Shown piece after piece: positions 1,520-20,811 of a stretch of 24,730 bases of DNA; within the stretch, counting starts at the first letter, position 1; every line of letters starts with the position of its first letter. The DNA comes from a virus. The notes beneath the pieces were generated by a model, which searched no databases, was not told the DNA's origin, and was given only the letters and a program-made list of their open reading frames with translations. Position numbers and translations under genes: made by a program. The stretch covers positions 1 to 24,730 of IMG/VR virus record IMGVR_UViG_3300021368_002993; one strand, given 5' to 3'.

Positions 1520-1545
1520 TTTAGTAACACGATTTAATATGTAAC
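1512..1545 (+). promoter_or_regulatory. Putative promoter overlapping a 22-bp operator-like element (site A)
   Basis: A 22-bp element at 1524-1545 begins GTAACACGA and ends ATGTAAC, one base before the ATG at 1547. A TTGCAT (1512-1517) and a TAATAT (1535-1540) are spaced by exactly 17 bases, with the -10-like box inside the element. A start about 7 bases downstream of the -10 would fall on the ATG itself, so a leaderless or near-leaderless message is predicted. Site B (5482-5515) has the same geometry. Confidence 0.5.
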
Positions 1546-1546
1546 A

Positions 1547-2107
1547 ATGGCTGGGGATATAATGGCAGATGTGGGTGATTATGGTGGTGGCACGGGTGTA
1601 GATTTGCTTAACTCCTTGCCGATGGCGCCACTCAATGAGATGGTTACTTTTGATTCAACCTCTACTGCACCACCAATACGACCAGATGGCTTTAGTCCTG
1701 GCTCCGCCTATAGTAATGATTTAGGGAACTTCCTAACTCTTTCAAGGAAAATGTCAGATGGTGACCCGCTATGGGAGAATATGATCGAGTTTGTAGACAT
1801 GACTGGTGTTGCTTCGTATGATGACGCATGGAGGGCATACACTGACTACAAGAAGGGTGATATTGGGGAGTTGACATTAATGCTGGAGGGAATGGGTGCT
1901 TTGCCGATAGTTGGAAAAATAAAAAGATTCATGGCAATAGATATGATGCCCAATGCCACTGCTACTGAAAAAGCTGTTGCAAAAGCCATGAATGCTTACG
2001 GAAAGGCAAAAGTCCCGCTAGAGGTAGTGAACAAATATGATGCGGTTGATGATGCTCTGGATGACAATGTAGATCCTTTGATCAAGGTACTTTACGGAAC
2101 AGAATAA
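1547..2107 (+). CDS. Putative virion-associated protein
   Basis: 186 residues. The N-terminal third is Gly/Asp/Pro-rich and probably disordered; the middle (residues about 60-125) is helical and contains the segment GALPIVGKIKRF, which resembles hydrophobic Leu-Pro-Ile/Val-Val-Gly-Lys stretches I remember from internal virion or tail-associated proteins. The C-terminus is acidic (Asp-rich). The first ATG lies one base after the operator-like element; an in-frame ATG at 1562 preceded by GGGGA is an alternative start. Its stop overlaps the next ATG by one base (TAATG). A structural role is inferred from place and composition only. Confidence 0.55.
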   Translation: MAGDIMADVGDYGGGTGVDLLNSLPMAPLNEMVTFDSTSTAPPIRPDGFSPGSAYSNDLGNFLTLSRKMSDGDPLWENMIEFVDMTGVASYDDAWRAYTDYKKGDIGELTLMLEGMGALPIVGKIKRFMAIDMMPNATATEKAVAKAMNAYGKAKVPLEVVNKYDAVDDALDDNVDPLIKVLYGTE

Positions 2108-2256
2108 TGGCTAGAAAAGCGAAAAAGAAACCAGCTAAGTCAAAAAAGGATGCCTGCTACCACAAGGTAAAGCGTTCTTACAAGGTGTTCCCTTCTGCCT
2201 ATGCAAGTGGTGCTATAGCCAAATGCAGGAAGAAGAGGGCAGGAAAGAAAAAGTGA
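2107..2256 (+). CDS. Tiny Lys-rich Cys-containing phage protein
   Basis: 49 residues. A Lys-rich N-terminus is followed by a segment with KKDACYHKVKRSYKVFPSAY and a later AKCRKK. This Lys-Asp-Ala-Cys-Tyr-His-Lys-Val pattern with a distal Lys-Cys-Arg-Lys is one I recall from small proteins of marine phages and as a domain in some algal giant viruses. The function is unknown; the very basic charge and paired Cys suggest nucleic-acid or metal binding. It starts on the last base of the previous stop (TAATG) and its TGA overlaps the following GTG. Confidence 0.65.
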   Translation: MARKAKKKPAKSKKDACYHKVKRSYKVFPSAYASGAIAKCRKKRAGKKK

Positions 2257-2483
2257 AGGGAACCCAATTCGATGATGCAAAACTTATGGATAAGGCTCTT
2301 AAGGAGTTCGCCGATTCAGCCCGTACTAAATTTCTTAACGGGATTAAAGAACATAATCCCGATGGTAATCGGGGAATGTGTAAGATGTCTTTTGAGGATC
2401 GTATTAAAGCTGCTAAAGAGGAAGTGATCGATTTATGGTTCTATTTAACCTCGATTGAATATGGGCGTAAGAAAGACAGCTAA
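2253..2483 (+). CDS. Hypothetical helical protein
   Basis: 76 residues if translation begins at the GTG at 2253, which overlaps the preceding TGA in a GTGA arrangement and has an AGGAAAG purine run upstream; a longer frame goes back to 2223. The protein is helical, with the C-terminal stretch FEDRIKAAKEEVIDLWFYL resembling a helix of all-alpha nucleotide pyrophosphohydrolase (MazG-like) proteins. It is too short, and lacks the paired acidic motifs, for that to be more than a resemblance. Confidence 0.45.
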   Translation: MKGTQFDDAKLMDKALKEFADSARTKFLNGIKEHNPDGNRGMCKMSFEDRIKAAKEEVIDLWFYLTSIEYGRKKDS

Positions 2484-2700
2484 AGGAGCCGCACTCAAGC
2501 GTTGGTTTAAGGAGAAGTGGACAGACCAGAAAGGTCGACCATGCGGTAATAAAAAAACTAAAGGCGTAAAAAAATGCCGACCAAGTAAGAAAATTTCAAA
2601 GAAAACACCCAAGACCTGGAAACAGGTTGGTAAAAAGAAAAAAGCGCTCGTAGCTGAAAAGCGCAGAGTAGGCATGGGGCGCAGAACAAAAAAGGCATAA
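2461..2700 (+). CDS. Lys-rich small protein, DUF5872-like
   Basis: 79 residues from the ATG at 2461, overlapping the previous gene by 23 bases. The order of motifs is KGAALKRWFKEKW, then GRPCG, KKCRPSKKISKKTPKTW and a C-terminal Lys/Arg tail. I recognise the Cys-Arg-Pro-Ser/Thr-Lys-x-Ile/Val-Ser-x3-Pro-x-Thr-Trp pattern from short proteins found in marine phages and nucleocytoplasmic large viruses (recalled as DUF5872). No activity is known. The two cysteines flank a basic segment; nucleic-acid binding or virion packaging is an inference from charge and from its neighbours, which are similar in style. Confidence 0.65.
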   Translation: MGVRKTAKGAALKRWFKEKWTDQKGRPCGNKKTKGVKKCRPSKKISKKTPKTWKQVGKKKKALVAEKRRVGMGRRTKKA

Positions 2701-2702
2701 TT

Positions 2703-2831
2703 ATGGCATACGGAAAAAAACCAAAAGCAAATAAAAAACCAATGGCGAAAAAACCTTTCAAGCCGTGCAGCTCTTGCCCAAATAAGGCTAAGTGCAGAAA
2801 AGCGGGTAAATGCTTAAAGCTTAAAAGATAA
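2703..2831 (+). CDS. Tiny Lys-rich protein with four cysteines
   Basis: 42 residues, 16 of them Lys or Arg. The C-terminal half contains four Cys with spacing Cys-x2-Cys-x5-Cys-x5-Cys (residues 22, 25, 31, 37), which would suit a single zinc-knuckle-like site. It sits between two similar basic Cys-containing proteins, two bases after one stop, and its TAA overlaps a following ATG. Function unknown; zinc and nucleic-acid binding are inferred. Confidence 0.6.
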   Translation: MAYGKKPKANKKPMAKKPFKPCSSCPNKAKCRKAGKCLKLKR

Positions 2832-2858
2832 TGGGCGGAACACACGGAGGAGGACATC

Positions 2859-3119
2859 ATGGCAAAGCCAACAAAAGGAAAGCGATTCGTAAAAGTAGTG
2901 CGAAATCCCAAAACGGGGCGTACCCGAAAAGTAAGCTACGGACAAGCGGGAAAAGCAAAGTCCGGCGGAGACCGAATACGTCCAGGTACTAAAAAAGGTG
3001 ACGCCTATTGCGCGCGAAGCGCAGGTATCAAAAAATGTAAGAAGCCACCTTGCGCAAATGATTTGTCGCGTAAAAAGTGGAAGTGCCGTGGCAAAAAATC
3101 AATGAGAGGTAAAAAATGA
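2859..3119 (+). CDS. Lys/Arg-rich Cys-containing phage protein
   Basis: 86 residues. The start at 2859 is set by a strong GGAGGAGG Shine-Dalgarno at 2846-2853. The N-terminal part (residues 8-50) has the pattern VRNPKTGRTRKVSYGQAGKA followed by a Gly/Asp/Arg segment; then GDAYCARSAG, paired Cys, and LSRKKWKCRGKKS. I recall this Ser/Ala-Tyr-Cys-Ala-Arg-Ser then Leu-Ser-Arg-Lys-Lys-Trp-x-Cys combination as widespread in marine phages, and a related pattern (possibly DUF6321) in algal giant viruses. Function unknown. Confidence 0.65.
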   Translation: MAKPTKGKRFVKVVRNPKTGRTRKVSYGQAGKAKSGGDRIRPGTKKGDAYCARSAGIKKCKKPPCANDLSRKKWKCRGKKSMRGKK

Positions 3120-3262
3120 GGAGTAGTTGTTGTAATTTTTGTGCCATTAAAGATGGCATGCAAGAAAAGGTTAAGAAAGCATCTAAACCCAAGTCGTGGA
3201 AAAAGAAATCTCCAGATCTGGAACTTGCCAAGGTAGCATACAAAAACAAGAAGGCGGCTTAA
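3116..3262 (+). CDS. Tiny Cys/Lys protein
   Basis: 48 residues, starting in an ATGA overlap with the previous stop. The N-terminus carries a CCxxC cluster (residues 5, 6, 9), followed by a Lys-rich stretch with PKSWKKKSPDLELAKVAYK. It shares composition with the four preceding basic genes and closes that run. No family recognised. Confidence 0.55.
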   Translation: MRSSCCNFCAIKDGMQEKVKKASKPKSWKKKSPDLELAKVAYKNKKAA

Positions 3263-3276
3263 GTCATACGGTTGAC

Positions 3277-3423
3277 ATGTCCGATAAGGAACATGGAAAA
3301 TTCGTTAACGCATTTAAGGTTTTCAAGGAGCAAACTGATTTTGAGAATGAGTTTAGCCCTATAATGCTCAAGTATTATGTGCAAATGGCTTACCTTGAAG
3401 GCTGGAAAAATTCAACCAAATGA
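3277..3423 (+). CDS. Hypothetical helical protein
   Basis: 48 residues from the ATG at 3277; the frame stays open back to 3196 but that stretch overlaps the previous gene. The sequence is helical and aromatic-rich (residues about 9-44). No clear Shine-Dalgarno is present, so the start is uncertain. The TGA overlaps the next ATG (ATGA), so it is probably translated together with the SWIM-type gene that follows. No function recognised. Confidence 0.45.
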   Translation: MSDKEHGKFVNAFKVFKEQTDFENEFSPIMLKYYVQMAYLEGWKNSTK

Positions 3424-3671
3424 ACATCGAATGGATGGAAGCCCGCAGGTATCTACTGACGAGCTTGACCAATCCAAGCAATGTCCACCTAGTTGACCTA
3501 GATGAGTTTGAGGGGTACGGAGAGTGCTCCTGCGAACACTTTAAGTTTCGCTTGTATCCTCGTCTTCGTCTTGGGAAGAAACCTCTGAGCTCTCGCTGTC
3601 GCCACCTTCGGCAGGCGCATCTTTTTGAGCGGCGCCAGCAGAAGCTTGCTGAGCCTCTGCCCATGACCTAA
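3420..3671 (+). CDS. SWIM-type zinc-finger-like protein
   Basis: 83 residues starting in an ATGA overlap. Cys36-x-Cys38, then 21 residues, then Cys60-x-His62 form the Cys-x-Cys-xn-Cys-x-His signature of SWIM zinc fingers, which in other proteins support DNA or protein contacts. The part before it (EARRYLLTSLTNPSNVHLVD) looks like an ordinary folded N-terminus. The last 131 bases lie opposite the C-terminal acidic tail of the convergent gene ending at 3541; the SWIM motif itself lies partly in this overlap, so the plus frame is likely the constrained one there. Function in the phage unknown. Confidence 0.55.
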   Translation: MNIEWMEARRYLLTSLTNPSNVHLVDLDEFEGYGECSCEHFKFRLYPRLRLGKKPLSSRCRHLRQAHLFERRQQKLAEPLPMT

Positions 3672-3864: not shown

Positions 3865-3935
3865 TTATTTAATATTTGATCTAGTATTAAAACCACAGCT
3901 ATTACAAAAGCTGCGTATAAAATAATTGTCTCCAT
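3861..3935 (-). CDS. 24-residue membrane peptide
   Basis: A very short frame: start at 3935 overlapping the preceding TGA by one base, stop overlapping the next ATG. The translated peptide is MET followed by an uninterrupted hydrophobic run (IILYAAFVIAVVLIL, residues 4-18) and a short polar end, so one membrane helix fills the peptide. An AGGAGAT Shine-Dalgarno lies about 8 bases upstream. Proper signals on both sides make translation plausible despite the length. Function unknown; small phage membrane peptides often act in lysis or host takeover, but nothing here shows which. Confidence 0.5.
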   Translation of the reverse strand: METIILYAAFVIAVVLILDQILNK

Positions 3936-4504
3936 CACCAAAGATCTCCTGTTACTTTATGAACTACTTTGTGAAATGAATACTTACCCCAATTGATCGA
4001 ATATCTTGGAGTCTTATCCTTCTGCGCTTCTGGTTTATGCAAAATCCACGAAGGAAATGTGTAGATAATATCTTTACCAGGCTTAATCTTTTCCTTTGCT
4101 CCGCACATAAATAAGCTTAATTCGCCACCATCTTTAGGGGGATTCAGGTAGCACACTGATGTTATTGTGGAGTCCTGAATATGATTATGCCAAACTTTGT
4201 GCGGAGGCAAGAGATCCGGCTTAGACCACTTCTCGTTGGTTTGCTTGTAAACAGAGAAATCAGAATCCATAGGACAAAACTTCTCCTGAAATAAATAAAA
4301 ATTACTAAAAACTGATTCGTGGATGTCTCGAAGGTTCAACCAGAGCTTGTCTCTTCTCAACGGAACATTGTATCCAACCTTCCCCTTTTCTTCATGGAAT
4401 TGCGCATCGATCTCTTCTTTATGAGCAGTAAGTAGGTCATGGAGTCCAGTGACGAAGTACCCATGGATATACTTACTTATATCTATGAACTTCGATTTTA
4501 CCAT
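3935..4504 (-). CDS. 2OG-Fe(II) oxygenase-like protein
   Basis: 189 residues. The C-terminal half matches the order expected for the phage-type 2-oxoglutarate/Fe(II) dioxygenase fold: WHNH (His106, His108), SVCYLNPPKDGGELSLF, then KPGKDIIYTFPSWILH with the distal His156, and PRYSINW with Arg167 placed to hold 2-oxoglutarate. Such enzymes hydroxylate proteins or nucleobases; in phages the targets are generally unknown. The proximal site is HNHIQD rather than a clean His-x-Asp, so the exact iron ligands are uncertain. It lies in a string of overlapping early-operon genes between an RHH-like protein and a membrane peptide. Confidence 0.7.
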   Translation of the reverse strand: MVKSKFIDISKYIHGYFVTGLHDLLTAHKEEIDAQFHEEKGKVGYNVPLRRDKLWLNLRDIHESVFSNFYLFQEKFCPMDSDFSVYKQTNEKWSKPDLLPPHKVWHNHIQDSTITSVCYLNPPKDGGELSLFMCGAKEKIKPGKDIIYTFPSWILHKPEAQKDKTPRYSINWGKYSFHKVVHKVTGDLW

Positions 4505-5439: not shown

Positions 5440-5481
5440 ATAACCATCCGCAAAAAGTAAAAAGTATTAAGAAAAAAAGAA

Positions 5482-5515
5482 TTGCCCACATCTGTTACAC
5501 GAATTTGTATGTAAC
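5482..5515 (+). promoter_or_regulatory. Putative promoter with 22-bp operator-like element (site B)
   Basis: The 22-bp element (5494-5515) begins GTTACACGA and ends ATGTAAC, three bases before the ATG at 5519. TTGCCC (5482-5487) lies 12 bases before the element, exactly where TTGCAT lies at site A, and the TTGTAT at 5505-5510 occupies the same place as the -10-like box of site A. The shared geometry supports a common promoter/operator design, although the -10 match is weak. Confidence 0.45.
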
Positions 5516-5518
5516 ATT

Positions 5519-5737: not shown

Positions 5738-5751
5738 ATCTAAAAGCACGC

Positions 5752-6072: not shown

Positions 6073-6091
6073 TGTATTTTTTATTTATTGA

Positions 6092-6385: not shown

Positions 6386-6395
6386 TTTTTCCTCC

Positions 6396-7787
6396 TTAAT
6401 TTTGAAGTCTATCTATGCTTTGGAAATCTCCCTGTATTGGTTGCCGTGCAACCTTATGGAGTCTTGGTTCTGGTGGTGGATCCTCTTTCTGCCTAAATCT
6501 CTGCGTAAACCTATCGAATGTTACACGATCTTTCGTGTGACCAATTGGACCAAAACGATTTTTGTTTACGATAATATCAGTAGTTTCAGTGTCCCCACCT
6601 GCTTTCATTTCTCGGTGCAACATCACCACAATGTCAGCGTCCTGCTCGATCTGCCCAGATTCTCTAAGATTATGAAGGGCAGGGGGTCCACCAGTTTTGG
6701 CTGAATCTCTGTTTAACTGACAGATGAGAAATACAACCAAATCTAGTTCTTTTGCCAACCTCTTACACGCCTTTGATATTTGAGCGACCTGCTGTTCCCT
6801 TACATCTCTCTTGTCTTCAGGTTCCATCAAGCCAAGGTAATCAATAAACACCGCATCGAGTCCCACTTTACGATTCATAGTCTTTGCCTGTGCTCGGATC
6901 TGAGAGATTGTTTGTGCTGGATCGTCGTCCACCCATATCGGAAGTTCAGAAATATTCTCCAAACCCTCCTTCAGTTTTCTCCTATCGTCTTCGTTATCGG
7001 TTCTGTCAGCGAATTTTGATAGATTTACCCCTTTGTCGATTGCCGCTAGTTTCTTTCCCAACTGATCCTTGGACATCTCGAGGCTGAAAAACAATATCTT
7101 CTTGTTTTTATGAGCAGCATGGTGAGCCACATTCATTGAAAATGTTGTTTTTCCGATTGATGGTCGGGCTGCCACCACAACCATTTGTCCCGCCCTAAAC
7201 CCTCCATCTAGAATTTTATTCAGAAAAGGAATATTTGTAACGATAGTCGCACCGCCCTTTTCCCTTTCCTCCTTCATGGCAAGATGGGTGGCTTCTGCTA
7301 ATTCTTTTGCAGATACTAGGGTTTTATTATTTGGCTCAATTAGATTTGCAAGTGATTCTTCGAATTTTACCGCAATCTTGGTAGGATCATCTAATTTTCC
7401 CGAATCATCGATCTCCTGTTTGATTTTTCTCGATAACTTTTCGAGTTCTCTAAATTTTAAGGCTTTTACGAGCCGATCGACAAATTCTCTACCCCTCCGT
7501 GATGTCTCACAACATAGGAGCACTGAATTGGTGAAGTTTGGATTACTCTGTTTCCAGTCCTTAGGCAGTCTATTCATCGCCCCAAACATGCCGAAGTCAT
7601 CAGCCCTATCAGCCTCCTTGAGAGCAACAAAATATTGCCTTATGGAATCGTCACAAAAATGATTTTCTGAAACGCCGCACTCAATAGCATATGACCAAAT
7701 GTCATAAGTCTCATCACAATCATCATGCCTTGTGGTGGAGACAAAGCCTCGTTCAGCGTCGTAATCACAGTAATTACTCAATGTCAT
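6396..7787 (-). CDS. dnaB: Replicative DnaB-like helicase
   Basis: 463 residues. The C-terminal RecA-like motor is complete: Walker A AARPSIGKTT (about 206-215), FFSLEMSKDQL (H1a/Glu region), Walker B VFIDYLGL (313-320), the Gln motif FLICQLNR, and LRESGQIEQDADIVVML with the arginine-finger region and the final KNRFGP. It unwinds the fork as a hexamer. The N-terminal 150 residues are divergent and only loosely recall the DnaB collar domain. The gene overlaps the initiator gene by 14 bases and is preceded by GGAAGGGGG. A copy of the 22-bp dyad element lies inside the coding sequence at 6520-6541. Confidence 0.93.
   Translation of the reverse strand: MTLSNYCDYDAERGFVSTTRHDDCDETYDIWSYAIECGVSENHFCDDSIRQYFVALKEADRADDFGMFGAMNRLPKDWKQSNPNFTNSVLLCCETSRRGREFVDRLVKALKFRELEKLSRKIKQEIDDSGKLDDPTKIAVKFEESLANLIEPNNKTLVSAKELAEATHLAMKEEREKGGATIVTNIPFLNKILDGGFRAGQMVVVAARPSIGKTTFSMNVAHHAAHKNKKILFFSLEMSKDQLGKKLAAIDKGVNLSKFADRTDNEDDRRKLKEGLENISELPIWVDDDPAQTISQIRAQAKTMNRKVGLDAVFIDYLGLMEPEDKRDVREQQVAQISKACKRLAKELDLVVFLICQLNRDSAKTGGPPALHNLRESGQIEQDADIVVMLHREMKAGGDTETTDIIVNKNRFGPIGHTKDRVTFDRFTQRFRQKEDPPPEPRLHKVARQPIQGDFQSIDRLQN
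6520..6541. promoter_or_regulatory. 22-bp dyad element inside dnaB (site E)
   Basis: Left half GTTACACGA and right half TCGTGTGAC form a near-perfect palindrome with 4 central bases and the same total length as sites A-D. It lies within codons for the HTKDRVT segment of DnaB. With its outside-promoter position it would suit a roadblock (stoperator-like) site on the leftward operon. Binding is inferred from similarity to the intergenic copies. Confidence 0.45.
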
Positions 7788-8337
7788 ACGCTATACCCCC
7801 TTCCGCATCTTCGTTGGTTTCATTCTCGTACCCTCCGTCGGTAAGCCATGAGTTAGGATGCTTTGGATGCCTGCCTTTCAATTCTTGCTTACGACAATAA
7901 TCATTAAATTTATCGCAGGTTTCCTCGGGACATAATTCCCTTAAATCTTCCCAATGATCGCTTATTGTTTTTACCACTCTTTTGGGGAACATTTTTGTGT
8001 CACAATTCACCCAAAACTTTTTGAACCAAACTTGAACCGCCTGTTTTTTATCATCTGTCGGACTCGACGATTTATCTTTAGATAAATCTAAATTAGTATC
8101 ACACGTACGCGCGTGAGAATTGTCCGACACATGTCCGACATTTGGTACTTTTTCGGCTTGTCCATTTGTCCGACACATGTCCGACAAATTTGATTGTATT
8201 CTCCAACCACATTGAGCCATGTAAATCTCTAATCCTGCTCGAGCAATTTCACTTGGTTTCTTACCTGTTGCGTTAGTAAACGCTTGTAGATTTGCCAAAG
8301 CCTCGGGAGATAGTCTAAATGATATTCTGTCGCTCAT
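7774..8337 (-). CDS. Replication initiator / helicase-loader-like protein
   Basis: 187 residues from the ATG at 8337, which has GGAG 8 bases upstream (an in-frame ATG at 8355 is inside the previous gene). Residues 3-42 read as a ribbon-helix-helix unit (ISFRLSPEALANLQAF, then KKPSEIARAGLEIYMAQ). A linker of about 50 residues is encoded by the repeat-rich origin DNA. The C-terminal half has VWFKKFW and HPKHPNSWLTDGGYENE, and a Pro-x-Trp-Leu-x-Gly-Tyr/Trp ending is common in phage initiators that load DnaB. The immediate downstream gene is dnaB, as with lambda O and P before host loading. The initiator role is inferred from position, the embedded repeats and the C-terminal motif. Confidence 0.65.
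   Translation of the reverse strand: MSDRISFRLSPEALANLQAFTNATGKKPSEIARAGLEIYMAQCGWRIQSNLSDMCRTNGQAEKVPNVGHVSDNSHARTCDTNLDLSKDKSSSPTDDKKQAVQVWFKKFWVNCDTKMFPKRVVKTISDHWEDLRELCPEETCDKFNDYCRKQELKGRHPKHPNSWLTDGGYENETNEDAEGGIAYDIE
8056..8186. other. Candidate origin of replication (iterons, AT-rich segment, hairpin)
   Basis: Four copies of TGTCCGACA occur in two pairs, at 8121-8129 and 8132-8140, and at 8167-8175 and 8178-8186; each pair is separated by CA, and the two 20-bp blocks are identical. One inverted core (TGTCGGAC) is at 8056-8063. Between them lie a perfect 8-bp inverted repeat GATTTATC/GATAAATC with 4-base loop (8069-8088), an AT-rich stretch (8071-8098) and an imperfect dyad TCACACG/CGCGTGA (8099-8116). 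The two blocks are read in different codon frames by the initiator gene, so the repeat is kept as DNA rather than as protein. Lambda carries its iterons in the O gene in a similar way. Confidence 0.65.
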
Positions 8338-8662
8338 CTGCTTATCTCCACCCACGTGGCTTCCTTTTTGTACGCGTTGACCTTCTCTTGCGAGACTTGG
8401 AGGATGATGGAGTTCGGGTCATCTTCAGGAATAATTCCTGCAAGCCTGAGCGCATCGATGAGATGCTTTTGTCCCCCAACAAGGTTGTCTGGGTCGCAGA
8501 TTCTGACCCGCATTGAGATAATGCGTATTCTATGGCGTTTCCTACTGCCATTGTCATTTCCCTCTTTTCTTTTAATCGCTCCCATTGATTCCACCTCAAA
8601 AAAGTGTTCAGCGAAGGGGTTCTCTTCAGTACCTTCAAGGTTATCTTCTCTCCCTGTTCCAT
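8334..8662 (-). pseudogene. RusA-like Holliday junction resolvase split between two frames
   Basis: From the ATG at 8662 (TAATG overlap with the previous stop) one frame gives a RusA-like N-terminus: ITLKVLKRTPSLNTFLRW followed by WERLKEKREMTMAVGNA. The family's hallmark C-terminal part appears in a frame one base back: RIRIISMRVRICDPDNLVGG, LIDALRLAGIIPEDDP and ILQVSQEKV, with the DPDNL and DD acidic residues that bind metal. A -1 shift near 8515-8545 would join both into about 108-110 residues, close to the usual 120. No canonical slippery heptamer is seen at the junction (AGGAAAC at 8537-8543 is the nearest), so an indel, natural or from sequencing, is more likely than programmed frameshifting. 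RusA enzymes cut four-way junctions. Confidence 0.65.
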
Positions 8663-9057: not shown

Positions 9058-9766
9058 ATTTTCCCTCCATTATTACTTTCATTAAATTTCGTGCTTCAGG
9101 ACAAAACGGGACCGCCGAGCACCATTTGCACTGCGACGGCCCCGCCGTTCTTGGAGCATTCTCATCCATTGCCTCATTTACTACTTCTGTAATCCACTCA
9201 CCCTTACCCTTAAGATGAGCATCAGTGTATGAGGCAGTCGTGTACATGGGCTCCTTGAAAGGCTCAATTAAGGCTACAAAAACCTCTGAGACCTTAGGGT
9301 AGTTTTTGTGTACCAAGGCAGCTTGAGCAAGTAGCTGTATGTTATCAAAAGCAGGATCATGATCCCCTCTTAATGTTTTATAGTCCGCAAGAAATGCGAA
9401 CTCAGTCAGTTTGTTTTCAACTAACTTGCTCCATGTCTCTAAGTAGTCAAGTTGCCCTGACCATTTACCATCCCACCACAACCGCACCTCACGTTCGATT
9501 GTAGTTTCATTTTCCTTCAGACCGAGATCTTCCCTGCACCACTCAAGTGCCTGACGACATCTAAGTGCACAAATCCGTTGCTCGTCATCCAAAATCTCAT
9601 CCAGTGGCGTCTGATTCTCCTCATGCTCATGTCTTATTGTACCCTCACTGGCGGCATCACTGTCCCCATACCAAGGGAACTTTTGATTAGCCATGTGGTA
9701 CCCTCTGCATTTTACGATAGCAGAGATCTTCGACGCGGAAGGAGCTCCGCCTCTTTCGTCACCCAT
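9035..9766 (-). CDS. PD-(D/E)XK exonuclease with Fe-S cluster (Cas4/RecB-like)
   Basis: 243 residues. Motifs in order: SASKISAIVKC (Cys20), SEGTIRHEHEE (helix with conserved His46 and Glu), GQLDYLE (Asp107), ADYKT (Asp128 and Lys130, the nuclease core), IQLLAQAAL (Gln of motif IV) and a C-terminal QCKWCSAVPFC (Cys213, 216, 222). Cys20 plus the three late cysteines give the four ligands of a 4Fe-4S cluster as in Cas4 and AddB. Next to an annealing protein, it most likely makes the 3' single strands that the annealing protein uses. It overlaps the ParB-like gene by 8 bases. Confidence 0.8.
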   Translation of the reverse strand: MGDERGGAPSASKISAIVKCRGYHMANQKFPWYGDSDAASEGTIRHEHEENQTPLDEILDDEQRICALRCRQALEWCREDLGLKENETTIEREVRLWWDGKWSGQLDYLETWSKLVENKLTEFAFLADYKTLRGDHDPAFDNIQLLAQAALVHKNYPKVSEVFVALIEPFKEPMYTTASYTDAHLKGKGEWITEVVNEAMDENAPRTAGPSQCKWCSAVPFCPEARNLMKVIMEGKYGRLVER

Positions 9767-10691
9767 TTAAGGTAGCCCTTTCGATGCCGTGAACCAAAAC
9801 ATTTGGAATAGTCATACCTCGCTCCACCCTGAGATATGAAATTTTCTTGCCAGACAAAAAGTGATTCCAAGATATTATGCCACCTTTGATTAGCCAACCC
9901 GGCTCCATAATGGTTTTCTCATTAAGCTTTCTTAGGATTGCATTTCTGAATACTAAGGTGGGGCATCCCTTTTCCAGTCCAACTCCGTCAAACACTTTAT
10001 CCATAAATGAATGCACCATCGTTTTGTCGAAAGACTGTGCTCTAACTAGAAGATAGTACAAAGCAACCAAGGGAGAGAGTCTTACTGGTAGCGACTTTCT
10101 CCATCTTGATACGAGCGGTATCATATGCTCTATCTCGGGATATTTTTCGCAATATGCATTTATTTCAGAATTTGAAATTGCTATTCTACTTGCACTTCCA
10201 TTCCCACTGATCCTTCTGTCTAGGTCAAATTTACCGACCAAGGAAATTGCTGCAGCAAGTTGCGTGGTGTACTTGTGGTCGTTTGCAGATAAAACATCCG
10301 AAAGATTTCTTTTCTTTCCTTGATTGAGTGAATCAAAAGCGGTTGTGTGCCTCTTTCCCAACTCTACAACTATTGTAGTAAATGATGCTTGGCTTTTTAT
10401 GCAGGCATGGAGCCTGTGTTGACCATCTATTAGTTTTCCGTCCTGAAAAACAATCGACTCTCCATTTAGCATCCAGTAACCTTTATTCATGGAGCGTATA
10501 TATCTCTCGACAGTAGCTTTAGATAGGTTCCTGTTCTTGGTTTGCTGACCGAGCATTGACTCTGCAAAGTCGGGAGTAATTTTCATTACTCTCACAAAAA
10601 GATCATGCTCATGATTATATAACCATTCATCCCCTCTCGATCCGAGGTTTGATTGTGGATTACTTGTTTTAGGTTTTTCTAGTGTTATCAT
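9759..10691 (-). CDS. ParB/sulfiredoxin-fold DGQHR-type protein
   Basis: 310 residues, GGAGGG Shine-Dalgarno 5 bases before the ATG. Residues about 35-115 hold the ParB-like core: LSKATVERYIRSMNKGYW, ESIVFQDGKLIDGQHRLHAC (the DGQHR signature) and FTTIVVELG. The remaining 190 residues are helical and contain no recognisable HTH. Phage proteins with this core are common beside recombination genes; their role (partition-like DNA binding, nucleotide-dependent clamp, or nuclease) is not settled. Between the nuclease and the annealing protein, a DNA-processing job is likely. Confidence 0.7.
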   Translation of the reverse strand: MITLEKPKTSNPQSNLGSRGDEWLYNHEHDLFVRVMKITPDFAESMLGQQTKNRNLSKATVERYIRSMNKGYWMLNGESIVFQDGKLIDGQHRLHACIKSQASFTTIVVELGKRHTTAFDSLNQGKKRNLSDVLSANDHKYTTQLAAAISLVGKFDLDRRISGNGSASRIAISNSEINAYCEKYPEIEHMIPLVSRWRKSLPVRLSPLVALYYLLVRAQSFDKTMVHSFMDKVFDGVGLEKGCPTLVFRNAILRKLNEKTIMEPGWLIKGGIISWNHFLSGKKISYLRVERGMTIPNVLVHGIERATLNG

Positions 10692-10712: not shown

Positions 10713-11522
10713 TTAAGCTACTCGCCCGAATCCCTGATTCCCGTCTTGATTTTTGCTTTTCGCATACATCATCAAGGCTTCGGCAAACTCCCTATTATTC
10801 ATGGAGTCTGTTTTGTCAGAAAAGTAATCTAGGTAGGTCGGATCTTCTTCCATGATTTGACCTACAGTCTTGCCTTTATGCTTTTTGTAGTCACAAATCA
10901 CATCTTTCCATGACTTTTCCTCCTGCACAGCTATGGGATCATTTTCCTCTAGCCACCCCTGTGGGGTAGAGTGCTGATCAGTAATGTCATCACCCACATA
11001 CTTAATCTCTTCCTCTGAGAGTGCTTGTGACTGGAGGATTTTGCCGACCTTTATATTTTTTCTTTCCTCTGCTCGGGCTTCCCTTAGTTTCTCCGCTTCA
11101 TCATCCTCCTCTTGAGTGCGCTCGAGAGGATCATCCTTAGACCAAAGTTGCCACGCATACCCGAATAAGGCGGCGGCGGCTTTACACGCCCCACGGACAA
11201 AAGAGTCTGCAACATCCCTTGACCCGATTTTATCTCCCGCAATTGGTTGCATTCGATTATCCATGATCGCATGAGGAATCCCTGCGGTCATTGTCCCGTC
11301 GATATGGGTAAAACGAATGACTAAATAGCACGATCCATCGGGTGCTTTGTGAACTTGATTCCCATCAATATCCAATGCCATTTCGGGCATCCATCCTGGT
11401 GCCTTAGATCTTACATCGTGCAAGGTGCGACCCCAGTTAATGTAACTTGCGTTAAATGTTCCCGTCCCTTTTTGTGATACATTTTCAGGGTCAGCGAGAC
11501 CGTTAAGATTTGGTAATTCCAT
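10713..11522 (-). CDS. Sak3-type (DUF1071-like) single-strand annealing protein with ExoX-like C-terminal module
   Basis: 269 residues from the ATG at 11522, chosen because GGAGGAG lies just before it; an in-frame ATG at 11537 is five codons upstream. The N-terminal domain (up to about residue 135) has INWGRTLHDVRSKAPGW, a strand-rich region with HAIMDNRMQPIAG, and SRDVADSFVRGACKAAAALFGYAW, which corresponds to the Sak3/DUF1071 pattern ending in a Lys-Ala-x-Ala-x-x-Gly-Leu-like helix. After an acidic linker, residues about 205-255 have YKKHKGKTVGQIMEEDPTYL, resembling the small C-terminal module of ExoX-like proteins. It pairs complementary single strands made by the nuclease. Confidence 0.72.
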   Translation of the reverse strand: MELPNLNGLADPENVSQKGTGTFNASYINWGRTLHDVRSKAPGWMPEMALDIDGNQVHKAPDGSCYLVIRFTHIDGTMTAGIPHAIMDNRMQPIAGDKIGSRDVADSFVRGACKAAAALFGYAWQLWSKDDPLERTQEEDDEAEKLREARAEERKNIKVGKILQSQALSEEEIKYVGDDITDQHSTPQGWLEENDPIAVQEEKSWKDVICDYKKHKGKTVGQIMEEDPTYLDYFSDKTDSMNNREFAEALMMYAKSKNQDGNQGFGRVA

Positions 11523-11769
11523 ATTGCTCTCCTCCATTTTGATTTACGACAAACTCAGGGCACTCAACCGCCTCACGAGTATTTGCTAGTTCAACAATTT
11601 CATCCTTTTTCCATCTTGGTGTTTTAAAACCGGGAAGTTTGATTGGACGAATGATTCGATGGCGCTCCAAATGCGCCAAGTATCTGTAGCCTGCCGTGGC
11701 TTTTAGACCAAGAAAGGATATTACTTCAGACCCTTTCATTAAGTATGATTCTTTACTATTCTCATCCAT
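11503..11769 (-). CDS. Excisionase-like / MerR-type HTH protein
   Basis: 88 residues, first gene of the leftward operon. Residues 11-58 form a winged HTH like those of excisionases and MerR-type regulators: MKGSEVISFLGLKATAGYRYLAHL, then a wing with GFKTPRWKKDEIVEL. The SEVISFLGL helix and the Trp/Arg before the last helix match this class. It could direct excision with the integrase located 0.9 kb away, or regulate the divergent promoters just upstream. Its end overlaps the annealing protein start. Confidence 0.65.
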   Translation of the reverse strand: MDENSKESYLMKGSEVISFLGLKATAGYRYLAHLERHRIIRPIKLPGFKTPRWKKDEIVELANTREAVECPEFVVNQNGGEQYGITKS

Positions 11770-11841: not shown

Positions 11842-11869
11842 TTGACAGATAGTGATACAAAAAGATAAA
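11842..11869 (+). promoter_or_regulatory. Putative promoter for the RHH regulator
   Basis: A consensus -35 TTGACA (11842-11847) is followed after 16 bases by GATAAA (11864-11869), a 4/6 match to -10. It lies in the 139-base divergent region between the leftward operon and the RHH gene. The reverse complement of this A/T-rich region could also hold the leftward early promoter, but no strong pair of boxes stands out. Confidence 0.4.
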
Positions 11870-11908
11870 GAAGGAAATTGCCCCATTTGCTTTTTGGAGA
11901 AAGCTATA

Positions 11909-12130
11909 ATGACAAAAAATAAAAATAACACCCTATACGCGATTAACACTAGAATCCCTTTGGACTTAGCGGAGAAGATGAACAACCATCTAGCTATTAC
12001 TAAGAAATCAGCCTCTGCATTCATAATGGATGCAATCGTTGAATACTTAGACCAAATATATTGCGAAAACTATAAGCCAACCAAAGCTCTGCAGATTGAT
12101 AGGTTCGCTGCTGACATAGAAAGGAAATAA
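11909..12130 (+). CDS. Ribbon-helix-helix regulator (CopG/Arc-like)
   Basis: 73 residues from the ATG at 11909, chosen for the GGAGA 8 bases upstream; the longer frame from 11852 lacks such a site. Residues 8-48 read as strand (TLYAINTRIPLDLAEKM), helix, turn (ITKKSASAF) and helix (IMDAIVEYLDQI), a ribbon-helix-helix fold that binds palindromic DNA as dimers. Its place across from the early operon, next to attP and the integrase, suits a lysogeny regulator; it is a leading candidate to bind the 22-bp dyad elements, though that is untested. Confidence 0.65.
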   Translation: MTKNKNNTLYAINTRIPLDLAEKMNNHLAITKKSASAFIMDAIVEYLDQIYCENYKPTKALQIDRFAADIERK

Positions 12131-12135: not shown

Positions 12136-12432
12136 ATGAATACCACCACCCAAAACATAACTATATTACATGACGCCCAGGAATGGAGCACTGATTTGGA
12201 TGGTGAGATTGGCGAAGTAAGAGTTGATGGTACTCGATTAAATGATGTGCATGACCTGACCTTAAAGGTAGAGAAGGTAGAGGGGATCGCTCAAAGTTTA
12301 AAGACATTGGTCTTATGCCTTGGTGTAATCTTGATGATCTCCTTGATCTGTAATATCAGCATAGCTACATGGGTGCTAATACACGACAGTTGTACCCTAG
12401 ATGCAATAGAGCAAATTTTGGCAACAAAATGA
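12136..12432 (+). CDS. Small membrane protein
   Basis: 98 residues, 5 bases after the RHH gene and preceded by AAGGAA. Residues 1-55 are polar and acidic with a helical segment; residues about 57-81 are a single membrane helix (LVLCLGVILMISLICNISIA); a short polar tail follows. Encoded with the regulator and just before attP, it is in the place where phages often carry lysogenic conversion or superinfection-exclusion genes. No family recognised. Confidence 0.5.
   Translation: MNTTTQNITILHDAQEWSTDLDGEIGEVRVDGTRLNDVHDLTLKVEKVEGIAQSLKTLVLCLGVILMISLICNISIATWVLIHDSCTLDAIEQILATK
12415..12428. repeat. Direct repeat flanking attP, left copy
   Basis: A 14-bp sequence ATTTTGGCAACAAA is found here and again at 12625-12638, on either side of the tRNA-derived core. 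A partial copy, TTTGGCAA, follows at 12639-12646. Placement on both arms of attP is what is expected of integrase arm-binding sites. Confidence 0.5.
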
Positions 12433-12468: not shown

Positions 12469-12521
12469 GCACCCGCTTTGGGAGCAGGAGGCCGTGAGTT
12501 CGAATCTCACCGTCCCGACCA
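12469..12521 (+). other. attP core: 3' half of a tRNA-Pro(TGG) gene
   Basis: Bases 12472-12521 read as the anticodon arm with loop TTTGGGA and anticodon TGG (12479-12481), a variable AGGCC, T-arm stems GTGAG/CTCAC (12494-12498 and 12506-12510) around TTCGAAT, an acceptor strand CGTCCCG, discriminator A and encoded CCA. No matching 5' acceptor (CGGGACG) is found upstream, so it is not a whole tRNA gene. One stem pair is mismatched (C12474 with A12486), which suggests that identity with the host gene starts at about 12475. Such a half gene restores the host tRNA on integration. Confidence 0.85.
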
Positions 12522-12647: not shown

Positions 12648-13655
12648 ATGAAAGTTGTAATTAAAAAACGCACAGTTCGTGGATCTGTAAAATGGGTCGT
12701 GGATGTTCAGCATGACGGAAAAAGAAGAAGAAAATTTTTTAATTCAGTAATTGAAGCAAAAGCATTCGATGTCTTATCTTGGATGGCAGAGGTCAGAAAG
12801 AAGGAGCCAGTTGGAGAGGAGACGATACTATTTGTTGCAAAAGAACTTTATTATAACGACTATCTAGAAAATAATTTTAACCCCAATAAGCCGAAACAGA
12901 AGGGGTACAGAACTACAGTAGAGAGAGTAAATAAATTCCTAGACTGGTTTGGAGAGGATCGTCCCGTTCATGAGGTAACCGTTAATGATTATAAGGACTA
13001 TGTAATGTCTGGTAAGTGGTCTGAAGAAACTAAAGCAGGATACAGTCGGGCTGTTCGTACATTTATGGCATGGTGCGCAAAGAAAGGCTTTGGTGGAAAT
13101 GTACAGGACTGGTACATATCAACTAACCCATGTCTAAAAAACTCAAAAAAGAAGACATATTCTAAGCTGCCTGAGATAGTTACACCCGAGCAGGCTGAGG
13201 GTTTATTGAATGAGATAACGGACAAATACCGTCCTGCACTCGCTCTTATGTTATTTGCCGGAATTAGACCAGAGATAGAAATGCTTACACTTGATTACTC
13301 TACAATTCGTTGGGGTAAATCAATAGGATTAAGGGCAGAACACACCAAGACCGGTAGAGAGAGATGGATTAAGCCACCTGAAAATCTATGGAGTTGGATA
13401 CCTAAAAAGAAGATCAATATTATGCCAAGCTATAATTCAGTTAATAAGGCAAGATATAGAGCGTCCAAAAGATTAGGTTTTAATTATCCACCCAATGGTG
13501 CCAGGCATTCGTTCGGTAGTTATGGGTACTGGAGATCTTTCGAGTGGGCATTAGATACCATGGGGCACATGTCATCCGAAACATTCCTTAAAAATTATAA
13601 GAACAATCGAGTAGATAAGGAATTATCCGATAAATATTTTGCGATAATGGGCTAA
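12648..13655 (+). CDS. int: Tyrosine recombinase (integrase)
   Basis: 335 residues. An N-terminal arm-binding region (1-50), a SAM-like core-binding domain (60-165) and a catalytic domain (175-335). Catalytic residues: Arg207 in FAGIRPEIEML, Lys234 in HTKTGRERW, Arg286 in PPNGARHSFGSY, His307 in MGHMSSETFL and the nucleophile Tyr317 in KNYKNN. The first His of the usual His-x2-Arg box is Asn284. It joins attP to the host tRNA-Pro gene. The start lacks a Shine-Dalgarno and lies 127 bases after the tRNA CCA end. The Asn-x-x-Arg-His-Ser form is one I associate with Verrucomicrobiota-linked integrases. Confidence 0.92.
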   Translation: MKVVIKKRTVRGSVKWVVDVQHDGKRRRKFFNSVIEAKAFDVLSWMAEVRKKEPVGEETILFVAKELYYNDYLENNFNPNKPKQKGYRTTVERVNKFLDWFGEDRPVHEVTVNDYKDYVMSGKWSEETKAGYSRAVRTFMAWCAKKGFGGNVQDWYISTNPCLKNSKKKTYSKLPEIVTPEQAEGLLNEITDKYRPALALMLFAGIRPEIEMLTLDYSTIRWGKSIGLRAEHTKTGRERWIKPPENLWSWIPKKKINIMPSYNSVNKARYRASKRLGFNYPPNGARHSFGSYGYWRSFEWALDTMGHMSSETFLKNYKNNRVDKELSDKYFAIMG

Positions 13656-13665: not shown

Positions 13666-13687
13666 GTAACACGAATTTTCGTGTTGC
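13666..13687. promoter_or_regulatory. 22-bp dyad element (site C)
   Basis: GTAACACGAA and TTCGTGTTGC with two bases between them form a palindrome with a single mismatch, 11 bases after the integrase stop and 33 bases before the first ATG of the packaging operon. No good -35/-10 pair is seen at the positions used in sites A and B. Probably an operator or termination/roadblock site at the head of the rightward late region. Confidence 0.5.
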
Positions 13688-14963: not shown

Positions 14964-16470
14964 GCGTCTCGCCCAAGCAGTAGAGCATGAAAGCGAGGAA
15001 ACAAAAGAGGTATCCAGCTGGACTCCTTCGCTCAGCCCTACTCAGCAACGCATATTTGATGATCCTGCAAAGTATATACTTGCTTATGGTGAACGGGGTT
15101 CCGGAAAAACTTTTTCACTCGGTGGCCATAAACTTGTTCGTCACTGCTATGAAAACTTTAATGCACTAGCTTTAATTATAGTAGGTGTTAGGTCTCAGGC
15201 TACCCTTGGTGGAGTGTGGCATAAACTGCAAGTCGAAATACTACCCGAGTGGGTAGAGGGTATAAATTTATCGCACACAGATGAAAGACAGGATACTCAA
15301 AAAAATTTATATATAGATATAGAGAATCGATTTGGTGGTCATTCTCGAGTTGTTCTTATATCTGTTCCGTATGGTGCTTTCATTAAGGATCGGATCAAAG
15401 GTTTTGAGCCCAGTCTTGTTTTTGTGGACGAGCTCACCAACTTAGATACACCAGATTACTTCAATGCGGTGGTTCAACAGTTGGGTAGACGGCAGGGGAT
15501 ACATGGCCCCCAGCAGTATTTAGCTGCTTGCAATCCCGACGGACCCAGCCACTGGGTTTATAAAAGATTTTTTGAGGAACCTTATGATGCTGATGGTAAC
15601 TGGAATGAAGACTATTCAACATATCATGTTCCTATTAAGGAAAATGAAGCAAACTTACCGCTCGGCTATTACGATCGAATCATAGAGGCAGTAAAATCTG
15701 ATCCCGTCGAGGAGGCGAGAATGGTAAGGGGTGAGTGGATAGATCGCCCTGCAGGAGATGCAATCTTCGGTCCTTATTTCAATAATGCAATGCACATTAA
15801 GGGTGATGCAAAAAACGGAATACTGCCATCTACGAAATATCCGATAATTTGCGGATGGGATCCGGGTTCTGTAAATAATGCCATAATTTTTATGCAAGCA
15901 TTACCAGGTGCAGATAAAACAATCTGGGCTGTATTTGACGAAATGGTCGTAATAAATAAAAAACTTCCATACACCACATTAATTCCAATGGTCATGCGCA
16001 AAATGTCATACTGGAATAGACGCATGAATCATAAATTTAAATATATACACATTTCAGATAATTCTGCATTTAATCAGTATCGAGCAAAAACAGGCTCTTA
16101 CGATGTGAGGGATATACAAGAAATATCTAAAGAAAAGTGCGCAACTTTTAAACTGGAACCAATAAGAATGAAAGCTGCACCAAAGTTTAGTGGATCTGTC
16201 GAGGCAAGGGTTAGGTTGATGATAGCGAAGCTCGCATCCGAAGAGTTCCTGATGTCGGCTCAGTGCACCAAATGCGCAAAAATGTTTAAGAATTTAGTTA
16301 GTGAAAAGCCTAGCAAAAATTATGACCCCAATGTTGCATTCAAACCAAAGAGAAGTGTTTATGTGCATGCCTTCGATGCCCTGTCTTATCCTATAATTTA
16401 TTATGAGTCCACCCACTATGTAGATGTGGGTCGTGCATCGGCTGGTGAGATAGTGGAATTAGGGGCTTGA
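14926..16470 (+). CDS. terL: Terminase large subunit
   Basis: 514 residues. ATPase domain: adenine-binding SPTQQRIFDDP, Walker A GERGSGKT (55-62), Walker B SLVFVDEL (163-170) and coupling motif AACNPDGPSHW (about 201-210). Nuclease domain (RNase H fold): GWDPGS with Asp312, HISDNS with Asp378 and HAFDALSYP with Asp484, a full acidic triad. It drives DNA into proheads and cuts concatemers. The family's cutting mode (cos or headful) cannot be decided from the sequence in view. Confidence 0.93.
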   Translation: MSKKKLKDKVLAERLAQAVEHESEETKEVSSWTPSLSPTQQRIFDDPAKYILAYGERGSGKTFSLGGHKLVRHCYENFNALALIIVGVRSQATLGGVWHKLQVEILPEWVEGINLSHTDERQDTQKNLYIDIENRFGGHSRVVLISVPYGAFIKDRIKGFEPSLVFVDELTNLDTPDYFNAVVQQLGRRQGIHGPQQYLAACNPDGPSHWVYKRFFEEPYDADGNWNEDYSTYHVPIKENEANLPLGYYDRIIEAVKSDPVEEARMVRGEWIDRPAGDAIFGPYFNNAMHIKGDAKNGILPSTKYPIICGWDPGSVNNAIIFMQALPGADKTIWAVFDEMVVINKKLPYTTLIPMVMRKMSYWNRRMNHKFKYIHISDNSAFNQYRAKTGSYDVRDIQEISKEKCATFKLEPIRMKAAPKFSGSVEARVRLMIAKLASEEFLMSAQCTKCAKMFKNLVSEKPSKNYDPNVAFKPKRSVYVHAFDALSYPIIYYESTHYVDVGRASAGEIVELGA

Positions 16471-16502
16471 TTTTAGTTACAATAAATCCTAAGTTACAAA
16501 TT

Positions 16503-16721
16503 ATGGAAAGTATTATATCGATAGATCTCAAGAATAATCCTGATCTTTTAGAGGATTTCGAGGGTGTTTCAGTCGGCGATAAGGTTAAGGTTGTTGTTGA
16601 GGCATCCGTGAGTGAGTTGTCCGAAAATAGAGCAGCCATGCCACTGGATAATGTTATCTCAATCAACTCCCTCGAGAGTCAAGATGACGAAGAAGGGGAA
16701 GAGGTCGAAGAGGAAGAATGA
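16503..16721 (+). CDS. Small acidic protein
   Basis: 72 residues from the ATG at 16503; a TTG at 16467 overlapping the TerL stop is an alternative. The N-terminus has SIISIDLKNNPDLLEDF and a strand-rich section (VGDKVKVVVEASVSEL); the C-terminus is almost all Asp/Glu. The upstream 35 bases contain two direct copies of AGTTACAA (one with one mismatch before it), 17 bases apart, which share a half-site with the 22-bp elements. Function unknown; conserved position between terminase and portal suggests a head-assembly accessory. Confidence 0.55.
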   Translation: MESIISIDLKNNPDLLEDFEGVSVGDKVKVVVEASVSELSENRAAMPLDNVISINSLESQDDEEGEEVEEEE

Positions 16722-17010
16722 TTCAACAGCAGCATCTACACTCATTGAGTGTCATTATGCAAAGTTGGGTCTCCCGAAAATTTGGAATCAGAAGCGCGTA
16801 GAGCGCATGTGCGCTTTCTTCCGAATGACATATGCAGAACTGGGCACACTGATCGGAGTGAAAGATTTAGATTTGAAAATAACAAAAACAAGACCTTTGC
16901 CCATGTCTGCCTGCATACTGCTTTCAGTCATTGAAGGTAAATTTATGCAAAATTGGGTGCCAGACCCAATAAAAAACATATTCGATTTTACGGGAGATAA
17001 AGATGGTTAA
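16684..17010 (+). CDS. Hypothetical protein with possible Cro/C1-type HTH
   Basis: 108 residues from the ATG at 16684 (GAGAG upstream), overlapping the acidic gene by 38 bases and the portal gene by 8. After a Lys/Arg-rich start, residues about 40-90 (KRVERMCAFFRMTYAELGTL followed by a Lys/Asp helix and LPMSACILLSVIEGKFM) resemble a degenerate lambda-repressor-type HTH. The position inside the packaging operon is unusual for a repressor. DNA binding is possible but not certain. Confidence 0.5.
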   Translation: MTKKGKRSKRKNDSTAASTLIECHYAKLGLPKIWNQKRVERMCAFFRMTYAELGTLIGVKDLDLKITKTRPLPMSACILLSVIEGKFMQNWVPDPIKNIFDFTGDKDG

Positions 17011-19270: not shown

Positions 19271-20679
19271 GCGAAGAGCAAGAAAAAGAACAAGTACAAG
19301 AGGAGGAAGTTGTACAAGAAGACGTACAAGAAGAGCAGCAAGAAGTGCAGGAAGTTGAGCAGGAGAAACCTAGCTCGCTCTTTGATGCACTATTTGAAGC
19401 CGCAGATCAGCCTACAGAGGAGGAGACTCAGGAACCAGAAGAAGACTTAGGGCAACCTATAACATTGAATGAAGCTGTAGATCAACTTTTGACAGACGAG
19501 GAGGCGGAACCTGAGGAGCAATCTGAGGAGGAGGAGCCAGAGGGAGATCAAGAGGAGGAAGCTAAGGCTGAGAAAGAGGAGCCTAAAAAAGAGGAGCCCA
19601 AGACAACCAAAAAGAAAAAAGTAAAGCAAGTTGTCGATCCTGAAATTGAAACTGAAGATCCCGCTCCACAATATGCTTTCCCGGAAGAAAATCCCGATAA
19701 AGAATTTATAGATAGTCTCTTGCCTGAAGAAAAAGATATATATGAATTAGCTAAATTTGCATCCCAAAATATGGATGGATTTAAAGGTAAAGATAAGCAG
19801 TTCAAGGATTACTTTGAGAAAACTAAGAACTACATAGATAAAAGAATTACAGAGGATCCAAATGTAGACTTATCTGAGGATGAAGATTACAGGTCATTTA
19901 TAGAAAAAAATAGACCCGACTTCAGCCAAGTAGACATCAAAAATGTAGAGCGTGAAAGAAATGTCCATGAGGCAATGCGTAGAATTGAGGAAAAGCAAGC
20001 TCCTGAAAAAGAGCGCGCACGAATAGAGCAGGAGAGAGCAAGAAAAGCCCCCCAAGTTCACAAGCAAAAATTGGAGTTTAGAGAATATTCAACCAAGGCT
20101 TTACCTGAAGAATTTGCGGATGTAACAAAAGATCAGGAATCAATTAAGGCTTTTGCAGAATCAAATCCACTTGAATTTCAAATTGTAAATTCCATTACCA
20201 CAGACCTACATAACCTTGGTGATCTGCTTTTGGATATAACCCAAGGGATGGTTGCGTTCGATGAGTCAAATCCAGTGCACTCAAAATTACTTTCTTGGGT
20301 AAATAAAGAGCAAGAAAACTACATACAGACAGGGCAAACTCAGCAAGATGGTAAAACATTTATGAGAAGGGAGCGCTTTTTTAAGCTACCAGAATCAAAG
20401 AGGACGCCGTATTGGACTTGGGATGATGCAGATTTAATTGCGATTCTCACGATGAGGGCAAAGCAAAGGATTGAAGAGTCAGTCACTAGGCAGAGGCAAA
20501 TACTTGAGAAATCAGGTTACGCAAAACAGGTTGCGCAACCTAAAGAACAAAAGGCTAAGCCGAAGGCTAAACGATCTTCACCACCAAAGGTCGCATCTAA
20601 GCCAAGACCAGGAAATACGCCTAATCAATCTCCTGCAACACCAGCTAAAAGTGCTTTTGAGTCGGTTTTGGGAATGTAA
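19267..20679 (+). CDS. Scaffolding protein (predicted)
   Basis: 470 residues. The first 140 are extremely Glu/Gln-rich (repeated EE, QEE, EEP) and disordered; the middle is helical with charged coiled-coil segments (about 210-275), and the C-terminus is Lys/Pro/Ser-rich and ends in SAFESVLGM, a plausible capsid-binding end. This composition between portal and capsid genes is typical of phage scaffolds, which guide prohead assembly and then leave. A 14-bp perfect palindrome (AGGTTGC/GCAACCT, 20528-20541) lies in the coding sequence. Confidence 0.78.
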   Translation: MSEEQEKEQVQEEEVVQEDVQEEQQEVQEVEQEKPSSLFDALFEAADQPTEEETQEPEEDLGQPITLNEAVDQLLTDEEAEPEEQSEEEEPEGDQEEEAKAEKEEPKKEEPKTTKKKKVKQVVDPEIETEDPAPQYAFPEENPDKEFIDSLLPEEKDIYELAKFASQNMDGFKGKDKQFKDYFEKTKNYIDKRITEDPNVDLSEDEDYRSFIEKNRPDFSQVDIKNVERERNVHEAMRRIEEKQAPEKERARIEQERARKAPQVHKQKLEFREYSTKALPEEFADVTKDQESIKAFAESNPLEFQIVNSITTDLHNLGDLLLDITQGMVAFDESNPVHSKLLSWVNKEQENYIQTGQTQQDGKTFMRRERFFKLPESKRTPYWTWDDADLIAILTMRAKQRIEESVTRQRQILEKSGYAKQVAQPKEQKAKPKAKRSSPPKVASKPRPGNTPNQSPATPAKSAFESVLGM

Positions 20680-20789
20680 AAAACCGATTTTAATATCAAC
20701 AAAACAAAAGCAAAATTTGTAGATTTAAAGTTTTTTTCAATAAAAAAACCTATTTTCCCCGTCAGTTAAGCCTTTGTGTTATTATAAGA

Positions 20790-20811
20790 GTTACACGAAT
20801 AATAGTGTAAC
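20790..20811. promoter_or_regulatory. 22-bp dyad element before the capsid gene (site D)
   Basis: GTTACACGAAT and AATAGTGTAAC form a dyad with perfect outer arms (GTTACAC/GTGTAAC), 20 bases before the capsid ATG. A TATAAT is at 20823-20828 but is too close to the ATG to be an ordinary -10. Upstream, 20680-20789 is A/T-rich and contains a perfect G-T7/A7-C hairpin (20730-20749) without a clear terminator function. No Shine-Dalgarno precedes the capsid gene. Confidence 0.55.

Follow-up and report, generated by a model that had tools for sequence, protein, structure and literature searches.

A 22-bp dyad element is dispersed over the window, a 24.7-kb IMG/VR record that is a fragment of a phage genome. 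Its copies are probably operators of one phage-encoded, lysogeny-linked repressor that acts directly on the late operons, and the most likely repressor would be the RHH protein encoded beside the integrase. By computation, the elements exist well above the chance level, are conserved in related phages, overlap promoters and carry inner bases specific to phage groups; they are absent from relatives without the lysogeny module.

The dispersed element in the window

An earlier note had reported 22-bp elements at five positions (1524, 5494, 6520, 13666 and 20790), and each of these does hold one (Table 1). The GTWACACGA half occurs in five copies, on the + strand only (0.15 expected; no more than 2 in any of 100 dinucleotide shuffles). 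The full dyad with up to three mismatches was found five times in the window vs none in 100 shuffles, and a separate dinucleotide-shuffle test gave five paired-box sites against a mean of 0.05. The conserved unit is slightly longer than 22 bp (tGTWACACGA...TGTWACa), with a core of two GTWAC boxes 17 bp apart. The count of five was nevertheless incomplete, since the degenerate copies at 16476-16497 and 23733-23754 had been missed. The first element indeed precedes the gene listed at 1547; however, the likelier start of this gene is the ATG at 1562 behind GGGGAT, which leaves the element about 16 bp upstream.

The sites at 1524, 5494 and 13666 have counterparts ahead of matching neighbour genes in the relatives. 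The copy inside dnaB is the least secure functional site and its function is doubtful; it is kept in two of the five relatives in which dnaB was seen (G012 and G024), and these have the two closest dnaB genes.

Table 1. Elements, promoters and lysogeny genes located in the window.
Feature	Position	Strand	Sequence	Remarks
Putative operator 1	1524..1545	+	GTAACACGATTTAATATGTAAC	GTWACACGA/dyad scan; -35 TTGCAT 1512-1517, spacer 17 bp, -10 TAATAT 1535-1540 within right half; kept in place in G010, G012, G014, G026
Putative operator 2	5494..5515	+	GTTACACGAATTTGTATGTAAC	-35 TTGCCC 5482-5487, -10-like TTGTAT 5505-5510; kept in G010, G012, G014, G024, G026
Operator-like dyad in dnaB	6520..6541	+ (antisense to dnaB)	GTTACACGATCTTTCGTGTGAC	Dyad scan
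Excisionase/Cox-like winged HTH	11503..11769	-		Heads the divergent early (replication) operon
RHH promoter, 10-bp direct repeats	11842..11871	+	TTGACAgataGTGATACAAAAAGATAAAGA	
RHH (Arc/CopG-like) protein	11909..12130	+		First gene of the lysogeny operon; candidate repressor
Small membrane protein	12136..12432	+		Lysogeny operon; not found in box-less relatives
tRNA-Pro(GGG)-like 3' part	12475..12521	+		Probable attP core, from sequence
Tyrosine integrase int1	12648..13655	+		phrog_1 2e-21; R, K, R, H, Y catalytic residues
Putative operator 4	13666..13687	+	GTAACACGAATTTTCGTGTTGC	Near-perfect dyad between integrase and packaging operon; counterparts in G009, G010, G014, G024, G026, G034
Putative extra degenerate operator	16476..16497	+	GTTACAATAAATCCTAAGTTAC	Upstream of the portal operon, on its promoter (TTGATT 16467-16472, spacer 17, TAAGTT 16490-16495)
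Putative capsid-promoter operator	20790..20811	+	GTTACACGAATAATAGTGTAAC	Immediately 3' of extended -10 TGtTATTAT 20777-20785
Degenerate copy	23733..23754	+	GTAACACTCAGTATAAAGTAAC	Within the 23291-24091 gene; intact equivalents here in several relatives

Conservation in related phages

Relatives were collected as 34 viral contigs by capsid search and 78 by TerL search; G010, G012 and G026 (about 80 kb each) are probably near complete, and several other contigs are fragments. Genes were called by simple ORF rules. The capsid search of the phage collection matched no named phage. Paired GTWAC boxes at a spacing of exactly 17 bp are common to at least 36 related phage contigs, and the consensus from 85 non-redundant sites of 28 contigs is tGTWACACGAAwtWWWrTGTWACa. 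The spacing is strict: 80 pairs of TGTWACA boxes have 10 bp between them (17 bp box to box) and a handful have other spacings; GTWAC alone gives 81 exact pairs at 17 bp and fewer than ten at almost every other spacing. G001, G012 and L153/L163 also have three or four boxes in a row with a 17-bp period.

The 80-kb relatives contain 7-15 paired-box sites each, vs 0.15-0.25 after shuffling. Of 37 relatives, 36 have paired boxes at the capsid promoter, and of 71 related loci, 67 have them at the TerL-portal promoter; the expectation from shuffled sequence is about 0.6. This retention at homologous genes, together with the absence from shuffled controls, gives good support to the proposal of the earlier note that the sites form one regulon, including late genes, which is bound by one protein.

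Several other genes of these phages were recorded. G012 encodes a DpdA-like protein (L048:3436-4284; PF23859, 3e-25) with homologues in G010, G022 and G026, which was not found in G036/G037; it suggests 7-deazaguanine DNA modification in these phages. The same genome encodes a giant protein of 4042 aa (L048:7181-19309) with the HExxH-like motifs HEIIH and HEIQH, which is conserved in the 80-kb relatives, and a protein beginning with the ThiF/E1-like nucleotide-binding motif IGCGGTGSH (L051:17005-17691; G012 76746-77435), which is family-wide, including G022. A predicted 2OG-Fe(II) oxygenase (phrog_81, 3e-6) lies at 3935-4504 on the - strand of the window. The sole hint to a host is an isolated 175-bp capsid-like fragment (L042, about 6674-6848) on an Opitutales MAG contig, which is perhaps a misassembly.

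Specificity groups and natural loss of the boxes

More distant relatives carry altered elements at equivalent places. In G022, G027 and G028 (about 62% capsid identity), GTTACTA... replaces GTWACACGA... at the same promoters; L148, L149, L153 and L163 (about 60%) have GTWACCCAA... at the equivalent promoters; and G032/G033 (30%) have GTAACCTTAGATTGAAAGTAAC ahead of the capsid gene. The outer boxes are thus constant across three phage groups and the inner bases group-specific. By analogy with the cluster A phages (PMC6550527), this has the look of diverging repressor-operator pairs, and the groups might be heteroimmune-like.

Two relatives have lost the boxes. No paired box was found in the 118 kb of G036 (72.7 kb) and G037 (45 kb), whose TerL identity is 67%, and int1, the RHH gene, the small membrane protein and the excisionase-like gene were not found in them either. 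Their portal promoter keeps the -35 TTGACC, with CACAAT 17 bp on. The boxes therefore appear dispensable for the promoter and are associated with the lysogeny module, in a comparison that covers two box-less genomes only, both of which may be incomplete and one of which (G036) has another recombinase.

The lysogeny module and the candidate repressor

In the window, the RHH gene, the membrane protein gene, a tRNA-Pro-like attP segment and int1 share one orientation, and the excisionase-like gene diverges from them. Two of the module's proteins, the RHH and the excisionase-like one, can be recognised as DNA-binding. The model of the RHH protein is of RHH type (pLDDT 90): a strand-like segment at the N-terminus is followed by helices at 18-31 and 35-51. 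A Foldseek search with this model gave no significant match; single members of the family match RHH_1 (7e-4) and the Arc-like repressor phrog_3180 (2e-4), and Arg15 in the strand is the sole invariant residue of the alignment besides Met1. For the excisionase-like protein, five of 16 homologues match phrog_66 ("excisionase and transcriptional regulator"), and there are weak Foldseek matches to BldC, SoxR, RdfS and Pukovnik Xis. The integrase keeps R207, K234, R286, H307 and Y317 in all eight aligned homologues.

The attP-like segment (window 12475-12521; L103 7515-7590) differs between phages: the window and G014 have tRNA-Pro, G026 and G024 have tRNA-Arg (acg in G026). The integration target thus seems to switch between close relatives. 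ARAGORN found no full tRNA in the window.

The divergent region between the RHH and excisionase-like genes has no GTWAC pair and contains other repeats instead. The direct repeats at the RHH promoter were rejected as GTWAC sites, being 10-bp repeats of another sequence; over 21 related regions the 10-bp periodicity has z = 7.3. The sequence of these repeats, at 11842-11871 and in the homologous regions, varies between phages and seems to follow the RHH allele. The excisionase-like protein could bind them.

The earlier note had named the RHH protein and an HTH protein (16684-17010) as possible regulators. On elimination and co-occurrence alone, the RHH protein is still the strongest candidate, and we give this particular step about an even chance. 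The HTH protein was rejected, since its homologue is present in the two box-less relatives. The second recombinase, int2, was rejected as well because it occurs in the box-less G036; and int1 is not a dead recombinase of the MrpR type, as its catalytic residues are intact. A putative replication protein (7774-8355, - strand) also begins with an RHH-like domain, the second in the window, and might be a minor alternative candidate for operator binding.

Each palindromic TGTWACA box might be a stand-alone site for one RHH dimer. Against this reading, the inner flanks vary by group and the outer ones are constant; in its favour, arrays of three to four boxes with a 17-bp period exist. The behaviour of the flanks agrees more with one asymmetric half-site per monomer than with an RHH dimer on every palindromic box.

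It is quite possible, with a chance somewhat short of even, that the operators are the same but that they are read by the excisionase-like winged HTH, by another unrecognised phage protein or by a host regulator. The GTWAC core is nearly invariant though the RHH and HTH proteins diverge strongly, and a host protein might equally be the reason for so constant a core. Moreover, the RHH protein of G011/L094 has been swapped for a divergent one with a GISFRL strand; whereas the operators of G011 remain of the common type, which counts against the RHH assignment. The individual alternatives nevertheless have difficulties of their own. In group 3 the recognition helix of the excisionase-like protein is completely changed, with a 3-residue deletion, but GTWAC is unchanged. 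A host regulator would account neither for the group-specific inner bases nor for the joint loss with the lysogeny module, and the occurrence of the HTH protein and int2 in box-less relatives speaks against these two.

Position of the elements on sigma70-type promoters

The exact paired-box sites are mostly extragenic (68 of 86, vs 11% of random positions), and many of them lie on ordinary promoters. A TTG, as in a -35, starts 12 bp before the element (-12) in 11 of 85 sites and 10 bp before it in 15 of 85, while the other offsets average 1.3; seven of the 11 sites with TTG at -12 carry TAnnnT exactly at element position 12, which gives a 17-bp spacer. Two layouts were recognized. In the first, a -35 TTGnnn is followed after 17 bp by a -10 within the right half of the element. 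In the second, which belongs to capsid genes, an extended -10 (TGTTATTAT) precedes the element, which then lies at +1.

The layout also affects the symmetry of the element. The inner triplet of the right half has on average 1.9 of 3 palindromic matches where the -10 is upstream, vs 0.36 of 3 where the -10 is inside. If the operator is palindromic and has bases in common with the -10, the one-sided conservation, with a fixed left half and a decayed right half, is therefore explained. The sites are oriented with the downstream late gene, predominantly in one orientation to transcription, and this apparent directionality also results from the -10 overlap.

An element that covers the -10 or the +1 in a varying register would fit repression, not activation. 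Sites for a late-gene activator made early in lytic growth would also precede late genes, in the direction of transcription; however, this is unlikely, since the promoters already have a consensus-like -35 and -10 with 17 bp between them, and the element is found on the -10 or at +1 instead of upstream, in a register to the -10 that varies. The box-less relatives, too, have to express their late genes, and their portal promoter retains its -35 and spacing. Promoters of a T7- or N4-like phage RNA polymerase would likewise be directional, have a fixed length and stand in front of genes; but this explanation is very improbable and was rejected because host-type -35 and -10 elements accompany the sites at fixed spacing, and no RNA polymerase was found by Pfam and PHROGs among the proteins scanned, a subset of all proteins, or recognized by eye in the 4042-aa protein. 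Just as improbable are parS-like partition sites of the ParB-like protein (9759-10691), which the earlier note had raised as the binder: the half-site GTTnCACG resembles half of parS, which would count for partition, but the sites are on late-operon promoters, and the protein was rejected as regulator by co-occurrence, with homologues in G012, G014 and G026 and none found in the box-bearing G010 and G022.

Under the preferred explanation, operators of a lysogeny-linked repressor, the protein would bind a dyad of about 24 bp, whose outer half-sites are the GTWAC boxes 17 bp apart, and would occupy the spacer/-10 region or the start site of ordinary sigma70-type promoters. As long as the phage is dormant, RNA polymerase would then be blocked at the late (capsid, portal and tail) and accessory operons. 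We infer repression by a protein binding as a dimer; the likeliest is the Arc-like RHH protein, whose gene lies with the integrase gene and is divergent from that of the excisionase/Cox-like protein. Neither the replication operon nor the repressor operon has a site of this kind, and the absence of boxes from the RHH/excisionase intergenic region leaves the silencing of early genes unaccounted for by these operators.

Comparison with known systems

In the lysogeny switch of P2, a C-int operon is divergent from the cox-replication operon, and C is an HTH protein with one early operator. The window likewise has the candidate repressor and the integrase in one operon, from which the replication operon diverges, with an excisionase-like gene as its first; whereas its divergent region is without the dispersed element, which sits at late promoters, and the candidate is an RHH rather than an HTH protein. 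Arc and Mnt of P22 are RHH phage repressors with one or two operators, and the centre spacing of Arc is 11 bp. The predicted RHH fold and the proposed role in phage regulation would be shared with them, but they have no genome-wide set of operators, unlike the dispersed operators described here.

To our knowledge, dispersed operator networks are known experimentally in few temperate phages only, namely P1, the cluster A mycobacteriophages and SPbeta. The lysogeny repressor C1 of P1 has 22 dispersed operators and represses lytic genes; these operators are asymmetric and of 17 bp, and the late genes are controlled by C1 via the activator Lpa (PMC8546580). As with C1, there are many operators over a genome of 80-100 kb, above chance (here up to 15 per 80 kb vs a shuffled mean of about 0.2), and the sites overlap promoters. 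However, the 22-24-bp dyad shows no similarity to the asymmetric 17-bp operator of P1 (ATTGCTCTAATAAATTT), and it lies directly on late structural promoters. The operators might work in the manner of P1, whose lysogeny operators are dispersed as well (PMC8546580), but would be of a distinct two-box type placed directly on late promoters.

The stoperators of cluster A are 13-bp asymmetric sites, mostly off promoters, and heteroimmune relatives have differing consensus sequences (PMC6550527, PMC9283540). The many sites per genome, the one orientation to transcription and the group-dependent consensus are similar here; whereas stoperators are asymmetric and terminate elongation, and the present elements are dyads, mostly extragenic and often with a -35 and -10. 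The 15-bp SPBRE motif of SPbeta is bound by the master repressor MrpR, which has a catalytically dead tyrosine-recombinase fold (PMC10516654). SPBRE is also a repeated element of intergenic regions; unlike MrpR, however, int1 keeps its catalytic residues, and int2 is present without boxes in G036.

Significance for the phage family

The phages carrying these operators form an uncultured marine temperate family, whose capsid has no named relative in the phage collection searched. As a tentative generalization, to which we give somewhat less than an even chance, an Arc-like RHH protein may be the master lysogeny repressor of this large family, directly repressing the late structural operons through 7-15 two-box operators per 80 kb; specificity that combines boxes and inner bases might then define at least three immunity groups. 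The system is readable from sequence alone, and it includes natural loss variants as well as natural changes of specificity. The operators would thus give a sequence test of temperate lifestyle and immunity group for metagenomic phages of this family, and the family would supply paired variants of repressor and operator.
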